A stretch of DNA of 64,000 nt from Gemmatimonadaceae bacterium (lineage in GTDB: Bacteria; Gemmatimonadota; Gemmatimonadetes; Gemmatimonadales; Gemmatimonadaceae). Position numbers and translations under genes: made by a program. The stretch is taken from the NCBI GenBank assembly GCA_020852815.1, contig JADZAN010000015.1, positions 134,840 to 198,839 on the forward strand, read 5' to 3'. Every line of letters begins with the position of its first letter. The stretch's first letter is position 1. Positions 41,249 through 48,060 of the stretch are shown here, one piece after another. Below the pieces are notes generated by a model, which was not told the DNA's origin, searched no databases, and worked only from the letters and a program-made list of their open reading frames with translations.

Positions 41249-41410
41249 TCCACCTTCCCAGCGAAAGCTGGGACCCATTTGTCGTTGCGTGCGGCACGAG
41301 CGGTGGCCGCTTGGCGTGAAACTACAATATCACGCGAAGCCCCCACCGTCCCAGCGAAAGCTGGGACCCATTTGTCGTTGCGCGCGGCACGAGCGGTCGC
41401 CCCCGCACGC
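41249..41410. repeat. Dispersed composite repeat, copies 3 and 4
   Basis: Two CCCAGC-GAAA-GCTGGG hairpins, near 41253-41268 and 41350-41365, are each followed by ACCCATTTGTCGTTGCG and a GGCACGAGCGGT tract. The first copy continues into a GTGAAACTACAATATCACGCGAAG end. They fill the gap between the convergent amidohydrolase gene and the broken gene at 41454. Confidence 0.85.
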
Positions 41411-41453: not shown

Positions 41454-41849
41454 CTAGAACAATTCGAGATCGCTCTTCCGAAGACGCCGGAACCAGCCGC
41501 GGCTCGCGGTGGGGGATGCGAGTGGCTCGAGGCGGACCTCGGCGGCGAGGTTGCCGACGACACGCACCTGCTGGAGCCATGACTTCATGGCGGGATGCGT
41601 GACGCCGAGTGTTGCGCTGTGGTCGCGCGGGCTGTGGATCCTGAAGATGTGAAAGCAGCCGCGCGCGTCGGTCGTCACGCTCTTGGAGGCAGAGCGGAGC
41701 ATCACGTGCACCGTCGCGCCAGCAACGGGAGCGCCGTCGGACGTCAGCACGAGTCAATCCGCGCGACTCGCCGCATCGACGAAGCGGGTCGGCGTCCTCA
41801 CCCACCAGCCAAGCACGGCCACACCCGCGAGCACTACCGCGACAATCAA
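41454..41849 (-). pseudogene. Membrane-anchored transthyretin-like protein split by a TGA
   Basis: After the stop at 41865 the same frame reopens. It encodes a TTG-started hydrophobic segment (LIVAVVLAGVAVLGWWV), then a short linker to RFVDAASRAD, then TGA at 41754-41756. Beyond the stop the frame runs on: LTSDGAPVAGATVHVMLRS, ARGCFHIFR and a C-terminal RLRKSDLELF. The second part is a carboxypeptidase-regulatory-like beta domain, usually preceded by just such an anchor. GTG 41750 would permit translation of this piece alone (98 residues). I read it as one gene broken by a nonsense change. Confidence 0.5.
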
Positions 41850-41864
41850 CGAGCGCGTGATCGA

Positions 41865-42317
41865 CTAGCCCACCTCCCCCCGAAACCGCTCAAAGATCCG
41901 CTGCAGCGCCGACGATCGCGTCCCCGCCGCGCCCACGGCGCGCGACGCCGCCAGGAAGGCGAGCAGCGCATCGGGGTGTCCGCGCACATCCAGGAGCCCG
42001 AACGTCAGCAGTTGCTCCAGCGTCACGGTACCATCCACCAGCGCCACGACGGACTGGTAGTCGAGGACAACCTGCATCAACCAGCCGTCGGGCGCAACGT
42101 CGCGCAGCGCGACGATCCCGTGGCCGGCACTGACACCGAGTGTTTCGTCACCAATGGCGAGCTGCGCCGGCGCCTGTGCCAGGAGCTCGGCCACGCGCGC
42201 GTACACTTGCGGGGATTCGTCGCGCAGCACCGCGAGGACGTCGATGGCCGCGCGCATGGCCGGGCGCATGCGTGCGTCGCGCCGCACCACGTCACGCGAA
42301 CCCCGCGGCGTACTCAC
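41865..42317 (-). CDS. Unknown protein, possible SCP2-like lipid-binding fold
   Basis: The product has 150 residues and no signal. The middle reads LAIGDETLGVSAGHGIVALRD, then VVLDYQSVVALVDGTVTLEQLL, then LLDVRGHPDALLAFLAASR. This order (a strand pair, D-x-x-S-x-x-x-L-x-D-G, a helix, L-x-V-x-G, a helix) recalls SCP2 sterol-carrier domains. The resemblance is weak and I give it low weight. It overlaps the CrtC-like gene by 4 bp, so the two are translationally coupled. Confidence 0.6.
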   Translation of the reverse strand: MSTPRGSRDVVRRDARMRPAMRAAIDVLAVLRDESPQVYARVAELLAQAPAQLAIGDETLGVSAGHGIVALRDVAPDGWLMQVVLDYQSVVALVDGTVTLEQLLTFGLLDVRGHPDALLAFLAASRAVGAAGTRSSALQRIFERFRGEVG

Positions 42318-43369
42318 CCCGCCAACTCCGCGAAGCCGACATACGAGAAGTGTATCTCGCGCCCGTCCAGCGTCCCTCGCACGGTGTACTCTCCCACCAA
42401 CTCGGAAATGGTCGTGCGCCCGTCGGTGGCCGGGTGGGGAATGAGGAACTGCATGGCCGAGTCGACGCGGAGGGTGATCTCGAGGACGTCATCGCCGTCG
42501 GCGGCGCGAATCTCGACCAACTCGGGAATGTAGGAGCGCTCGGGGACGAGCAGCGACATCACACCCGGGATGCGCGGCACGTCGCCATAGCGCCGTTCTC
42601 CGTGCACGGCGATGGTGACGGCGTCACCTACGAAGGCGCGGCTCCAGCGCTCTCCTTCCCACACCATCATCACCAGGTCCGAACGCGCCGAGGCGCGCGA
42701 CCCGTCCGTGACTTGCCCAAAGACGATGGAAAGCGGCGGCCTGGCACGCATCGCGCGCTTGCCGCGCCCGTTGGCTTGCGGCTCGAGGATGTAGCCCCAG
42801 TCCCACCCGATGTCGCGCCCCCAGTCCCAGCTCCCCCAGTTGTGGTCGTGGTAGCCGCTCGCCCCTCGCAGCGGGATCTCGCGCCCCTGCAGCACGAGCG
42901 TCCCCTCGACATCAAAGCTCGGTTGCAGGAATGAACTCACGACGCCACCGATGTGGTCGAGGCGCATGGGTGAGGCACGCGGCGTCCACCGCGCGTTAAG
43001 CGCGACCGAGCCATCCTTGAGCGCCCCACTCACCTCATAGGCGCCGCGACGCAGGCGCACCGCGTTGCCCCCGATGGCCACGTCGGCGCTCCCGCCCGAG
43101 AAGGTGCACTCCTCGAGCGGATGGAGGTTCATCGTCCCGTGCCATCCCACGCCGCGTTCGCACACGACGAGCGACACTCCGGCCCGCGCCCGTGACGGAT
43201 GATGCACGTCGCCCGACAGCGCGAGGTTGAACAGCCCGTACACCTCCGACGCGTCGTCGTTGAAGTTGAAGTGATGCCACTCGGAGTAGCGCTCGAGGTC
43301 GGGCGCGCCCGCCACCGGTGGGTGAAAGGCATCGTCGCGAGCCGCATCGAGCGAGGGACGGACTTGCAC
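42314..43369 (-). CDS. CrtC/AttH-like lipocalin-fold protein
   Basis: The product has 351 residues. ERYSEWHHFNFNDDASEVYG, GWHGTMNLHPLEECTF and GYHDHNWGSWDWG (172-184) are the hallmarks of the hydroxyneurosporene-synthase/AttH superfamily. Its members hydrate carotenoid double bonds (CrtC) or cyclise terpenoid-type substrates. The second half is the matching beta-barrel. It sits in an operon headed by a polyprenyl synthase, which supports an isoprenoid substrate. There is no phytoene synthase or desaturase in the window, so classical carotenoid synthesis is not indicated. Confidence 0.75.
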   Translation of the reverse strand: MQVRPSLDAARDDAFHPPVAGAPDLERYSEWHHFNFNDDASEVYGLFNLALSGDVHHPSRARAGVSLVVCERGVGWHGTMNLHPLEECTFSGGSADVAIGGNAVRLRRGAYEVSGALKDGSVALNARWTPRASPMRLDHIGGVVSSFLQPSFDVEGTLVLQGREIPLRGASGYHDHNWGSWDWGRDIGWDWGYILEPQANGRGKRAMRARPPLSIVFGQVTDGSRASARSDLVMMVWEGERWSRAFVGDAVTIAVHGERRYGDVPRIPGVMSLLVPERSYIPELVEIRAADGDDVLEITLRVDSAMQFLIPHPATDGRTTISELVGEYTVRGTLDGREIHFSYVGFAELAG

Positions 43370-43372
43370 GGC

Positions 43373-43828
43373 CTAACGAAGCAGCCGGCCGCCTGGCCAG
43401 TCGGCGCCGGAAGCTTCAGGCGCGGTCGCGATGGCCAGGAATCGCGATGGCGCCGCGTGTCGCGCCGGGCGACGTCGCTCGGCGGGACGCGGCGTCGGGC
43501 CGGCGTCCTCAGGGGCGAGAGCCGCCGCACCCTCGCTCGGCGACATCATCAACGCCTCCGCGCGCGTCGCGAGCTGCGCCACCTCTTGCACCACGTCGGC
43601 GGGGCGTTCGATTGCCGCCGCCAGCTTACCCGACAGCTGCTGCAGCAGCGCCCGCAGCTCCGCGCGATGCTCGAGAATCAAGCCGCCGCGATCGGTGAGG
43701 AGTTGCACCAGCACCGGCGTCGACACGAAGGCATCGACAATCACCCGCACGTCGTTGGCCGGTGAACGCGCAATGGTGACGCAGGGGAGCGCCGAAGGGG
43801 CAGCGCCCCGCGCGCGGCGCCGCGTCAT
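43373..43828 (-). CDS. Small helical protein, unknown function
   Basis: The product has 151 residues, with an Arg-rich N-terminus and a Pro/Ala/Arg-rich C-terminal third. The centre is helical and amphipathic: VLVQLLTDRGGLILEHRAEL and ALLQQLSGKLAAAIERPAD. No signal or membrane segment. The pattern resembles phasin-like or coiled-coil proteins in a general way only. It overlaps the next upstream gene by 4 bp (ATGA). Confidence 0.55.
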   Translation of the reverse strand: MTRRRARGAAPSALPCVTIARSPANDVRVIVDAFVSTPVLVQLLTDRGGLILEHRAELRALLQQLSGKLAAAIERPADVVQEVAQLATRAEALMMSPSEGAAALAPEDAGPTPRPAERRRPARHAAPSRFLAIATAPEASGADWPGGRLLR

Positions 43829-44589
43829 GCCGACGACGCCCCGCCAGGTCGCTTTCGCTTCCCCTTTGTAGGGTCACCCTTGCGCCCCGCCGCACGTGAG
43901 GCGACGCGCGCGCTGCTCCCCTTCCCTGCATCACCATTCCCGGCCTCCCCAACCGGCGCGTTCACCGAGACGGCGATCGCGATCGTCCGCGCCTGGTACC
44001 CCTTGACCCGCACGTCGCCGCGGTACGTGGTCCCCGACGTCGCGCCCGCAGGAATGGCGATCGCCGCCTGCACCACGCGCTGCCCGCGCCCGAGCGAGAG
44101 CGACGGCGGCTCGAACGACACCCGATCGACCGGGATCTCCGCGCCCCCCTCACTCCGCAGCGGCGACGCCTCGAACGAGACCTCGAGCGGGCGATCGTAC
44201 TCGTTGGCGATGAGGAAGGGGGCGCGCACCGTCTCACCGGGCGCCCCCTGCACGTGCAGGTCGATGGCCCCGGCCGACGACGCAGGCACCGTGCCGCCAT
44301 CGTCTCCCGCCGACGGTGCAGCTGACGACAGCGTACGCCCCAGCAGCGATCGCTCCGCGGCGTCGACCAACCCGCGCATCACCTCGGACGAATGCGACGT
44401 CATCAGTGTCGCCGAGGCAAGGTTGAAGTCGAGCCAACGCGCGAAGAGGTCGTTGGCGTTGGTCGGCAACCCCTCGCGCGAGGCCTGCTGCACCAACGTC
44501 GACACGCGCGACGCCAGTTGCGTGTTTGCCTCCATGTTGCGCGTGAGGAGTCCCTTGAGCTCTTCGATGAACGTTTCGGCGGTGGCCAT
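43825..44589 (-). CDS. Helical plus Ig-like protein, phasin-like N-terminus
   Basis: The product has 254 residues from ATG 44589. Residues 1-95 are helical (FIEELKGLLTRNMEANTQLA, then ARWLDFNLASATLMTSHS) and resemble phasins or PhaE-like granule proteins. Residues 110-220 form an Ig-like domain (IDLHVQGAPGETVRAPFLI, VVQAAIAIPAGATSG and TIAIAVSVNAP). The tail is Lys/Arg-rich. No signal, so cytoplasmic. Two further proteins of the operon have the same kind of Ig-like domain. Confidence 0.6.
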   Translation of the reverse strand: MATAETFIEELKGLLTRNMEANTQLASRVSTLVQQASREGLPTNANDLFARWLDFNLASATLMTSHSSEVMRGLVDAAERSLLGRTLSSAAPSAGDDGGTVPASSAGAIDLHVQGAPGETVRAPFLIANEYDRPLEVSFEASPLRSEGGAEIPVDRVSFEPPSLSLGRGQRVVQAAIAIPAGATSGTTYRGDVRVKGYQARTIAIAVSVNAPVGEAGNGDAGKGSSARVASRAAGRKGDPTKGKRKRPGGASSA

Positions 44590-44615
44590 GGTCGCTCGGG
44601 TGCGGCGGGTGATGG

Positions 44616-45335
44616 TCAGGCAACCGGTTGGTTGGGGCGTGTTCCCGTGGTCGGGACACCGGGGATGGTGCCTGGCGTGTTGGGGTTGTCCGGCGTGGTG
44701 CGCGGCGGGTCGCACGGCTCCTCGCACTGCCAGTGCCGGTACCAGTGCATCGTACGCACTCGGCGCGGCGGCTCCCCTTGCGCCACTTCGCAGGTGATCG
44801 TGGCCTCCGCCTGCACGGTGAGCGTGACCTTGACGCACTGCTCGTACGCCCCGGTGACGAGCACCTCCGCCGTCGCATCGCCCGCCTGCGCCCCTGCAGG
44901 GACGGTGTAGGCCAGCGCCACATCCCCCGCACCACCGGGGGCGAGCTGCAGCTGACCGGGCGCGACAGCGATCTTCCCCGCCAGCGGCGACGACAGGTCG
45001 GTGGAGGCGATGGCGAAACTCCGCGCCACCTTCCCCGTGTTGCGCACGCGAATCGTGGCGCGGAATGTCTCACCGGGGCTCCCCTCCCAGTGCAGCTCGC
45101 AGACGCAATGCGGCGGGCAGTCGGTCTCGGGGATGTCGCACCCACAGTCCTCGCTCCCGGTCGCCGTGCGGCGCAGCGTATCGAGTGACGGGATGGCCGG
45201 CATCGTCGCCGAGGCGCGGGAGACGAAGTCGCGCGCACTCTCCATCGACAGGACGAGGAGTCGCGGCGCCACCGTCAGCAGGTCGGCCGCCGCCGGCGCC
45301 GACGCGCTGGTGTGCTTCATGGATACACGGCTCAT
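44616..45335 (-). CDS. Ig-like protein with Cys-rich segment and Pro-rich tail
   Basis: The product has 239 residues from ATG 45335, overlapping the upstream stop by 4 bp. Residues 65-80 hold a Cys cluster (DCGCDIPETDCPPHCVCEL). An Ig-like domain follows (SPGETFRATIRVRNTGKV, LQLAPGGAGDVALAYTVPAG). Near the end are MHWYRHWQCEEPCDPP and a Pro/Thr-rich tail. The paired cysteines could bind metal. There is no signal peptide. Confidence 0.6.
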   Translation of the reverse strand: MSRVSMKHTSASAPAAADLLTVAPRLLVLSMESARDFVSRASATMPAIPSLDTLRRTATGSEDCGCDIPETDCPPHCVCELHWEGSPGETFRATIRVRNTGKVARSFAIASTDLSSPLAGKIAVAPGQLQLAPGGAGDVALAYTVPAGAQAGDATAEVLVTGAYEQCVKVTLTVQAEATITCEVAQGEPPRRVRTMHWYRHWQCEEPCDPPRTTPDNPNTPGTIPGVPTTGTRPNQPVA

Positions 45336-46138
45336 AACGCCCTCCGCTTGGTGGACGCCGCGCTGCCATCGCAGGTGAGGGCGACGAACAGGCGGGCATG
45401 CATGAATGAGATGGAACGCACGTAGTCGCGCCCCTTGCGCAGTTCCTCCGGCAGGTGCAAGCGCAGGTGCAACGCTGCGCTGGCGCCAGCGGCCAGCTCC
45501 TCCTCCTTCGACTCCACATCGACGCGCATCGGGCGGATGTCGGTGTCCTTGAGCTCGGCGAGCAACTTGTCCAGGAAGGCGGTCGCGCCGGCGTCGCGCG
45601 AGATGTCGCGCAGCACGTAGGTCAGCGAGCGCCCCATCCAGAACTTCTCCTCCAGGTGAACGAGCGCCGCACGCGGGATGGCCACGGGCACATTGCCGCG
45701 GTTGCTGACCCACAGCGCGGCCTCGAGCACGTCGCCAGGAGCACCGCGCAGTTCGAGCCGCGACGGCGTGAGCTGCACCGACACGCGTTCCAGCACCTCG
45801 AGCACCACTCCGCCCTCGGCGAAGCCCTCGGCGTCCACCGTGTAGCGCCCCGGCGGCGTCTGCGGATCGATCGTCATCGAGGCGCGCGCGCGCGTCGCCA
45901 CGCGTGGCGCCAACCGCGCCCCGATGCGCAACGCACTGGGTGCCAGTGCCGCATGCGTTCCATACTCCGCATCGCCGTCGCGACGCGCTCTCACTTCGAG
46001 GTGTCGCACCTTCACCTTCTCGTCGCTCTCGTTCACGAGCGTCACGTCGCCCCACAGCACCGGAGGAGCACCGCGCAGGACGATCGACTCGTGACCGGTG
46101 CGCCATCCCTCGCCGGGCGGTAATGAATAGCGTTGCAT
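45332..46138 (-). CDS. Two-domain Ig-like protein
   Basis: The product has 268 residues. Two Ig-like units are visible: GDVTLVNESDEKVKVRHLEV with RASMTIDPQTPPGRYTVDAE, and LRGAPGDVLEAALWVSNRGN with LAAGASAALHLRLHLPEEL. Between and after them are short helical parts. No signal peptide. ATG at 46138, with a GGAGG-like stretch a few bases upstream. Function unknown; together with the next two genes it makes a family of three cytoplasmic Ig-like proteins. Confidence 0.6.
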   Translation of the reverse strand: MQRYSLPPGEGWRTGHESIVLRGAPPVLWGDVTLVNESDEKVKVRHLEVRARRDGDAEYGTHAALAPSALRIGARLAPRVATRARASMTIDPQTPPGRYTVDAEGFAEGGVVLEVLERVSVQLTPSRLELRGAPGDVLEAALWVSNRGNVPVAIPRAALVHLEEKFWMGRSLTYVLRDISRDAGATAFLDKLLAELKDTDIRPMRVDVESKEEELAAGASAALHLRLHLPEELRKGRDYVRSISFMHARLFVALTCDGSAASTKRRAL

Positions 46139-46180
46139 CGCGTCACCCTCCCTGGGCGATCGGTGGGATGTCGCGCGTCG

Positions 46181-46549
46181 TCATGGGCAGCGCTCCGCCG
46201 GGCGCGGAATGTAGTCCTCCACGATCACCATGCTCTCCCCGCACACGTGGAAGCAGAACAGTTCCATCCCCATGCTCTTCACGCCGAACTTCATGTTCAC
46301 GGGGAACGAGATGCGCGTGGGACGCATCGCCATCGTCACGTCCAGCGCAATGCGCGGCAGCCGCTCGACACTCAGAGAGAGCGCGTTGGTCGTCGTGAGG
46401 GCGCTTGTGCTCGTGAGCACGCTCGTACTGTTGAGCGTGATCGGCGGGAGCGCATTGATGCGGATGTCGTCCAGCCCCATGTCCACGCCACCGGCGAGCG
46501 TGAGGTCCATGTGGGTGGTGTATTCACTGGGGATGTCCGGGCTGCTCAT
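46181..46549 (-). CDS. Small protein, unknown function
   Basis: The product has 122 residues. A Leu/Thr/Ser-alternating central strand region (LNSTSVLTSTSALTTTNALS) is followed by ALDVTMAMRPTRISFPVNMK and MELFCFHVCGESMVIVEDY. The repeating LTST/LTTT pattern suggests a beta-solenoid or shell-like strand array. No family recognised. It lies between the polyprenyl synthase gene (53 bp) and the Ig-like gene (42 bp) in the same direction. Confidence 0.6.
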   Translation of the reverse strand: MSSPDIPSEYTTHMDLTLAGGVDMGLDDIRINALPPITLNSTSVLTSTSALTTTNALSLSVERLPRIALDVTMAMRPTRISFPVNMKFGVKSMGMELFCFHVCGESMVIVEDYIPRPAERCP

Positions 46550-46602
46550 GGTGGCTCCGTGATGCGGGTCGTGAGCGGGAGGATCCTGGGACTACACAGC
46601 GC

Positions 46603-47709
46603 CTACAGGTCGCGGTGGATCACGTAGTCGATCATCGACTCGATGAAGTCGAGGTGCGTGGACGGCGGGAGTGAGGCGGTGATGGTCTCGAACTCGCGCC
46701 GGGCCTGACGGGCGAAGTCGCGCGACAGCTCGCGTCCATGGTCCAGCGCACCGTGGCGTTCCATGGCGGAGAGCACCATGTCGACCTCGTCCTGCGTTTT
46801 GCGGGCGCGCGGCGTGCCGAGGACGCGCAGGATGCGCTGTCGCTCCCGCCCACCTGCGCGCTGCAGCAACTGGATGAGCATCAGCGTGCGCTTCCCCTCC
46901 CAGATGTCGCCCGCGCGCTCCTTGCCATAGCGCTCCTCTTCCCCAACGAGGTTGAGCAGGTCATCCTGGATCTGGAACGCGACGCCGAGGTGGTATCCGA
47001 ACTCCTCCCACGGCTCGAGGGAGACGTCGAGCGGCCCGCCGAGCAGGGCGCCGAGTCGGCAAGGGGTGATGGTTGTGTACCAGCACGTCTTCTTGCACGA
47101 CATGCGGAAGTAGTGCGCGTCGCGCAGCTCCCACGCGTTGGCGCGCACCCACTCCAGCTCCATTGCCTGTCCTTCCACCGACTCGCGCGCCATCCGCTCG
47201 ATCTCTCGAAAGATCCGCAGCGTCTTCTCCAGCCCCACCACTTCGAGGTTGTTGAGGAGCGGCGTCATCGCCAGGACGTTGAGCGCATCGCCCACGTTCA
47301 CCGCGATCGCGATTCCCCAATCCTGGTGCATGGTGGGGGCGCCGCGACGGTGCAACGATTCATCCTCCACGTCGTCATGCACGAGAAAGGCGTTGTGGAA
47401 GAGTTCGAGCGCCACCGCGGTGGGAAGGGCGTGCGCCGCCTCACCGCCGTAGGCCTGGCAGGTCGCGAGGCAGAGCGCCGGGCGCAGCCCCTTGCCTGTA
47501 CGCAACGGGTAGTCCGACATGCGGCGCGCCAGCACATCGTCGAAGCCCTTCTCCGCAATGATGGATTGCATCTCGCCGATGACCGCGTCGCGATAGCGCA
47601 GCAGGTCGGCGACAAAGCCGGGAGGGGATGCGACGGCGACGGAAGGCGCGCCGCGCGGCGCGACTGGAGGAGCGACGGGGGCGGCGGGGGCGGCGACAGC
47701 GGGGGACAC
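46603..47709 (-). CDS. Trans-polyprenyl diphosphate synthase
   Basis: The product has 368 residues from GTG 47709; a longer open frame to 47802 lacks protein character. The Ala/Pro-rich N-terminus (about 30 residues) is not part of the fold. First Asp-rich motif Asp112-Asp113-x-x-Asp116 (HDDVEDESLHRR), GKGLRPALCLA, KTCWYTTITPCRLGALLGG and second motif QDDLL (Asp249-Asp250) identify an active-type isoprenyl synthase. The second motif is DDLLN rather than DDxxD. Expected product: a short- to medium-chain prenyl diphosphate. It heads the operon and gives the best clue to the system's chemistry. Confidence 0.85.
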   Translation of the reverse strand: MSPAVAAPAAPVAPPVAPRGAPSVAVASPPGFVADLLRYRDAVIGEMQSIIAEKGFDDVLARRMSDYPLRTGKGLRPALCLATCQAYGGEAAHALPTAVALELFHNAFLVHDDVEDESLHRRGAPTMHQDWGIAIAVNVGDALNVLAMTPLLNNLEVVGLEKTLRIFREIERMARESVEGQAMELEWVRANAWELRDAHYFRMSCKKTCWYTTITPCRLGALLGGPLDVSLEPWEEFGYHLGVAFQIQDDLLNLVGEEERYGKERAGDIWEGKRTLMLIQLLQRAGGRERQRILRVLGTPRARKTQDEVDMVLSAMERHGALDHGRELSRDFARQARREFETITASLPPSTHLDFIESMIDYVIHRDL

Positions 47710-47888: not shown

Positions 47889-48060
47889 CCTTCCCAGCGA
47901 AAGCTGGGATGTCGGCGTCGATGGACGTCGCACACCCCGCCTCGCCCCCACGCCCACCTTCCCAGCGAAAGCTGGGACCCATTTGTCCTGGCGTACGGCG
48001 CGAGCGGTGGCGAGCGGGTGGAGAACTACGGTCTCACGCGAAGGCACGAAGGCACAAAGA
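47889..48060. repeat. Dispersed composite repeat, copies 5 and 6
   Basis: A short copy (hairpin near 47895-47910) is followed by a full copy (hairpin near 47962-47977). The full copy has ACCCATTTGTCCTGGCG, GGCGCGAGCGGTGG, GAGAACTACGGTCTCACGCGAAGGCACGA in pieces, and a GGCACAAAGAACGAAG end. This is the most complete example. Similar GAAGGCACGAAKGCAC ends occur near 3828 and 1082. Confidence 0.85.

Follow-up and report, generated by a model that had tools for sequence, protein, structure and literature searches.

The cores known from bacterial inclusions, namely polyhydroxyalkanoate (PHA), triacylglycerol, polyphosphate and sulphur, were found one by one. In the PHA granule, or carbonosome, small helix-bearing cytoplasmic proteins (PhaF and PhaI in Pseudomonas, PhaM in Ralstonia) stand beside the core-making enzyme, and PhaF joins a PHA-binding helix to a DNA-binding tail of AAKP repeats (PMC5658603). 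AlgP of Pseudomonas aeruginosa carries a KPAA tail that is required for the spacing of polyphosphate granules (PMC9239181), and a polyprenyl transferase is a known cargo of family-2 encapsulins (PMC8346489). Here, we analyzed a window of 64,000 nucleotides from a Gemmatimonadaceae bacterium (assembly GCA_020852815.1, contig JADZAN010000015.1, positions 134,840 to 198,839), in which an operon on the minus strand combines a prenyl diphosphate synthase with a cassette of four genes, A-B-C-D. Judging from the genes, we give even chances to the reading in which A-B-C-D moves horizontally as a cassette that coats a hydrophobic inclusion in the cytoplasm, with D tethering this inclusion to the nucleoid. 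That the inclusion represents an undescribed class of isoprenoid granule, whose modular coat of immunoglobulin (Ig)-domain proteins is exchanged between prenyl-lipid, DUF362-type and PHA synthesis and is distributed sparsely across phyla, is a more tentative proposal, to which we assign slightly less than even chances.

The four genes are found on one strand and in the same order in 19 distinct loci, one of which (L045) ends at a contig edge after C. Fifteen of these loci came from a scan in which A was searched against about 85,000 species genomes, and the window, one additional locus (L035) and two Acidobacteriota loci found later complete the set. The hosts found by the scan include Gemmatimonadota, Acidobacteriota, a Roseobacter strain, Gamma- and Deltaproteobacteria, Neomarinimicrobiota, Dormibacter, a metagenome-assembled genome (MAG) of Acetobacteraceae and a MAG titled Planctomycetia. 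Since the gene order recurs across phyla, the association of A, B, C and D is far beyond chance. In the window, A (122 residues, 46181 to 46549) is followed by B (268 residues, 45332 to 46138), C (239 residues, 44616 to 45335) and D (254 residues, 43825 to 44589), all on the minus strand; relatives of A come first and orthologues of B second in every cassette. The cassette is rare, occurring in about 1% or less of the sampled genomes. A was found in 3 of 150 Gemmatimonadota genomes, the window's own included, and in all three it is directly followed by orthologues of the 268-, 239- and 254-residue proteins, while strong matches to C occur in 4 of 395 Gemmatimonadota. Sampling elsewhere yielded one cassette in 296 genomes of the Roseobacter's family, three in 347 Acidobacteriota, one in 201 genomes of the Dormibacter phylum and one in 180 of the order of the Acetobacteraceae MAG; a search of plasmids with C gave no match. 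Further low-scoring matches to C in Gemmatimonadota (E values of 1e-5 to 1e-3) were taken as apparent general similarity between Ig domains and not as cassette members. The cassette of the MAG titled Planctomycetia (L037, JAUXCH010000040.1) groups tightly with those of Gemmatimonadota, which points either to a recent transfer or to a misbinned or mislabelled contig.

We then turned to the architecture of the cassette proteins. None of the operon proteins has a transmembrane (TM) or signal segment by hydropathy, the first-pass annotation having noted the lack of signals for the six unrecognised products, and scans of A to D against Pfam, NCBIfam and PHROG gave no match over cut-off. Searches of the PDB with profiles of A, B and D likewise revealed no convincing relative. 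The model of C shows an N-terminal helix (residues 16-44) followed by a PapD/ASH-type Ig domain, most of which has predicted local distance difference test (pLDDT) values of 81-92. Foldseek relates it to HYDIN, CEP192, OCRL ASH and PapD folds (E values down to 4e-7), and the C profile reaches Hydin (6e-4). The family motifs CDIPxPCW and HHWYDHFYCxRPC are partly diverged in the window protein, which keeps CDIP and HWYxHxxCxxxC. D consists of a helical N-terminus, an Ig/Fn3 domain (fn3_5 in 7 of 18 family members, HYDIN Ig in two) and, in the window, a Lys/Arg-rich tail. In most members the tail is rich in Lys, Ala and Arg and resembles histone H1 (e.g., AKKTAAKKTAAKK), and one member matches the histone-H1-like family HC2 (9.3e-6). 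B probably comprises two Ig-like domains, as suggested by weak NPCBM_assoc matches in 4 of its 17 members. A combines a repetitive, beta-type N-terminus of LPxVxV motifs, which number 39 across the family versus 7.3 in shuffles, with a conserved C-terminal hairpin bearing CGExxxIxExYxPxxxE; Foldseek matches to its model were meaningless. B, C and D are predicted to be cytoplasmic proteins of the Ig/PapD type, with an additional N-terminal helix in C and D. The three Ig-like proteins of the first-pass annotation are recovered, B more weakly than C and D.

What varies between loci is the set of enzymes accompanying the cassette, of which we distinguish four settings. In setting 1 (10 loci: L035, L038-L041, L043, L044, L046, L051 and, at a contig edge, L037), the partners are a prenyl synthase of 312-316 residues, a flavoenzyme of the geranylgeranyl reductase family and a small helical protein with a basic tail, for which a PDB profile search found no convincing relative. 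The flavoenzyme passes the family model TIGR02032, which spans BchP/ChlP, DGGGPL reductase and MenJ, with 166.9 bits versus a cut-off of 158.8 and carries the YxWxFP...GxG motif (YGWMFPMSNGRANVGVG); it stays under the cut-off for every equivalog of the family. A protein of 116-118 residues without family match also lies beside the reductase (L035:8745-9095, L038:8574-8927, L039:3706-4062), restricted to the Gemmatimonadota-like loci of this setting and L037. Setting 2 (three loci) comprises the window, Roseobacter cerasinus (L042) and Dormibacter (L048), with a prenyl synthase subfamily of its own, a helical protein, a CrtC-like protein and a 150-residue protein, so that the whole eight-gene composition of the window recurs in two other lineages; L042 and L048 additionally encode a methyltransferase and a helix-plus-Ig protein. 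Elsewhere in the window's genome there is no close relative of this methyltransferase (best E value 1.6e-9, 29% identity). Setting 3 (four loci: L036/L049, L047, L082 and L083) features a DUF362-type protein and, unless the locus is cut short, a reductase resembling HpnA together with an SRPBCC-like protein. This setting is a second unexplained conserved neighbourhood (L036:5428-9352, L047:77-2311, L082:2549-9318, L083:2658-9310): its DUF362-type protein has a long C-terminus without assignment, an unassigned protein of 408-409 residues is also present, and L082 and L083 carry a UbiB-like kinase. Finally, in setting 4, a single Acetobacteraceae MAG (L050/L084), a PHA synthase with an SACAGG lipase box (PhaC_N, 3.5e-52; TIGR01839, 557 bits) is encoded directly downstream of D.

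Overall, a prenyl synthase adjoins 12 of the 19 cassettes, two more loci are cut by contig ends and five have none nearby, while a reductase of the geranylgeranyl reductase family lies beside 10 cassettes and a CrtC-like gene beside three. The co-occurrence survey that the first-pass annotation had named as its refuting test therefore gives a mixed outcome, mostly with the synthase and mostly without the CrtC-like gene, and the conserved unit is A-B-C-D rather than the whole operon. The idea of an undescribed system, the cytoplasmic Ig-like proteins and the link to a prenyl synthase hold, so that the earlier interpretation is borne out in part. Its proposed granule is independently supported by the PHA synthase that follows the cassette in one genome and by basic tails resembling those of PhaF and AlgP.

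Is the cassette inherited together with its enzymes? In a tree of A, B and C, the window cassette groups with those of L082 and L083 from setting 3 (support 100) and not with the other cassettes of setting 2, and forcing either setting 2 or setting 3 into a single clade is rejected (approximately unbiased test, 1.7e-5 and 6.2e-5), with the caveat that the cassettes of the window and of L082/L083 have diverged strongly enough for long-branch effects to be possible. By eye, however, A, B and C of these three also have features in common that are missing from the others, such as CDIPxTxCPPxCxCxxxW in C. The setting-2 synthases, for their part, form a distinct subfamily, with 45-56% identity among themselves versus 18-26% to those of setting 1. 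The tree of the cassette is thus at odds with the enzyme sets, as expected of an independent module that pairs with different core enzymes, and the simplest reading of the sequences is that cassette and enzyme partners have been re-combined.

Within the window operon, the synthase (368 residues, 46603 to 47709, minus strand; the GTG start is uncertain, with an ATG at 47571 as alternative) belongs to the prenyl diphosphate synthase family (PF00348, 7.6e-59) and is the only operon protein to pass a curated cut-off. Both Asp-rich motifs had been claimed for it; the first reads DDVED, whereas the second is DDLLN instead of DDxxD, its last Asp being replaced by Asn. The protein shares 45-48% identity with the L042 and L048 synthases and 18-23% with those of setting 1. 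Downstream of D follow, on the same strand, the helical protein (151 residues, 43373 to 43828), whose orthologues adjoin the CrtC-like gene in L042 and L048, the CrtC/AttH/tocopherol-cyclase-type protein (351 residues, 42314 to 43369) and the 150-residue protein (41865 to 42317), with orthologues directly after the CrtC-like gene in both loci. The CrtC/AttH assignment is suggested by the GYHDHNWG motif, by alignment with the L042 and L048 orthologues and by weak matches of a three-sequence profile to AttH 2ich (0.0065) and the CrtC-domain protein 7a0q (0.027), but the window protein has no Pfam match even at E<1; the L042 orthologue weakly matches Tocopherol_cycl (0.006). A search of 198 Rhodobacteraceae with the setting-2 CrtC-like protein returned the known one and four weak matches. 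Among 150 Gemmatimonadota genomes, 57 encode CrtC relatives (28-38% identical; L006-L034). The faint SCP2 likeness reported for the 150-residue protein was not recovered: it matches neither SCP2 nor any other Pfam family over cut-off, and a PDB profile search gave weak unrelated matches only.

How does this cassette compare with the known granule systems? Like PhaF, D has a helix and a Lys/Ala-rich tail, and in one genome the cassette directly precedes a PHA synthase. However, in D an Ig/Fn3 domain separates helix from tail; the carbonosome has no counterpart of A, B and C; and the usual partners of the cassette are isoprenoid enzymes. PhaC (PF07167) is absent from the window's genome and from 17 of the 19 cassette genomes, being present in those of L050 and L042. 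The cassette is thus not simply a PHA accessory, and the window operon, with no PhaC in its genome and no phasin over cut-off among the putative coat proteins, does not belong to the PHA granule system. As in AlgP, a granule protein that was compared by its tail, the basic tail of D resembles histone H1, whereas the core is different (polyphosphate) and no Ig-domain relationship is known. Within setting 1, the geranylgeranyl reductase family provides a further link to described enzymes, a family without a member in the window operon. The cassette may work like a carbonosome coat. As no paper describing such a cassette was found in the open-licence literature, in agreement with the first-pass annotation, it is probably a system without described counterpart.

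The strongest clues for a coat are the exchange of the core enzyme, PHA synthase included, and the PhaF- and AlgP-like tails. Observed are the conserved genes and their order, the swapping of partners, the domain layout, the missing signal and TM segments and the basic tails; the product, the inclusion, binding to its surface and tethering are inferred. The neighbouring enzymes would make the core, for which the best reading is most often an isoprenoid. In the window, the synthase would elongate an isoprenoid diphosphate that the CrtC/AttH-type enzyme and the 151- and 150-residue proteins could modify or handle, so that the product, going by the synthase and the CrtC-like gene, is probably a modified prenyl compound; the reductase-family enzyme would saturate the chain in setting 1, and the PHA synthase would supply the core in setting 4. 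The N-terminal helices of C and D and the amphipathic beta repeats of A might contact the hydrophobic surface, B, C and D might contribute their Ig/PapD-like domains to the outer protein layer, and the Lys/Ala-rich tail of D might bind DNA and, like PhaF, tie the inclusion to the nucleoid. Several observations weigh against this scheme. The link to PHA synthase comes from a single MAG, setting 3 has no evident polymer- or prenyl-making enzyme, and the cassette members are known from genes alone. The A model is confident only for about residues 78-118, the C-terminal hairpin, and mostly of low confidence elsewhere. In L036, L050 and L082, D has no clear basic tail, and of the phasin-like helical N-terminus claimed earlier the helical character stands, while Phasin_2 matches a single D protein below cut-off (0.014; 16 bits versus 24.9). 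Lastly, the many conserved Cys residues of C could form disulphides and hence suggest export, though no signal is seen.

Alternatively, A to D could act as a metabolon scaffold that holds membrane-associated isoprenoid enzymes, their product being a membrane lipid, a quinone-like compound or a pigment that is not stored. We regard this as unlikely, albeit the most serious competitor: most partner enzymes act on isoprenoids, the neighbours include a methyltransferase with UbiE-type matches and the UbiB-like kinase of L082, and Ig/ASH domains are often protein-protein modules, yet an isoprenoid-specific scaffold leaves the swap to PHA synthase unexplained, and tethering to the nucleoid is the better explanation of the basic H1-like tails. 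The Ig/PapD-like domains and the Cys residues, common in exported proteins, would also suit an exported structure of the surface or envelope in which the isoprenoid serves as anchor or pigment; with A to D lacking signal and TM segments by hydropathy and secretion genes missing from the conserved neighbourhood, this appears improbable.

Slightly less probable still is a closed protein shell, encapsulin- or microcompartment-like, with the synthase as cargo. Family-2 encapsulins do tie a prenyl diphosphate synthase to dedicated structural proteins, and in NCBIfam the window synthase scores best against their cargo polyprenyl transferase (NF041169). This match, at 193 bits, falls far below the cut-off of 450, the operon encodes no HK97 shell protein, and the cassette proteins, Ig-like with helices, match no encapsulin, HK97 or bacterial microcompartment family. 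A family-2 cargo assignment was therefore rejected. Carotenoid clusters contain CrtC-like and prenyl synthase genes, and CrtC relatives occur in Gemmatimonadota, which would agree with an ordinary carotenoid-type pathway beside unrelated genes adjacent by coincidence. We consider this very improbable and already contradicted by the conserved order across phyla, given that an alphaproteobacterium and a Dormibacter have all eight gene families together, that A-B-C-D is kept in 19 loci, and that neither cassette nor synthase lies within about 1.5 kb in the ordinary CrtC loci we inspected.

The eight genes (47709 to 41865) are tightly coupled, with 4-bp overlaps at 45332, 43825 and 42314 and remaining gaps of 53, 42, 26 and 3 bp, and their lengths, overlaps and spacing agree with the first-pass annotation, as does the presence of a ninth, broken open reading frame (41454 to 41843, minus strand), in which an in-frame TGA separates a TM segment from a CarboxypepD_reg domain. 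As the related loci L042 and L048 have no counterpart, this frame probably does not belong to the system. Independently, we observed a palindrome, TCCCAGCTTTCGCTGGGA, in seven copies (six perfect) in the window versus 0.01 expected. Doublets flank the operon on both sides (41256-41366 and 47892-47977), further copies lie at 1009, 4448 and 4536, and among the fetched loci the palindrome is confined to those of the window's own genome. These copies are repetitive extragenic palindromic (REP)-like elements and perhaps mark transcription boundaries.

Returning to the coat reading, the question is directly testable, since a named strain, Roseobacter cerasinus AI77, has the full setting-2 operon. 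If true, the reading would extend the known inclusions by a new organelle-like compartment, in which unrelated Ig-domain proteins coat an isoprenoid core, and would give a new lipid class to look for. It would also mean that a modular coat can serve different core-making enzymes, which is potentially useful for storing hydrophobic products.

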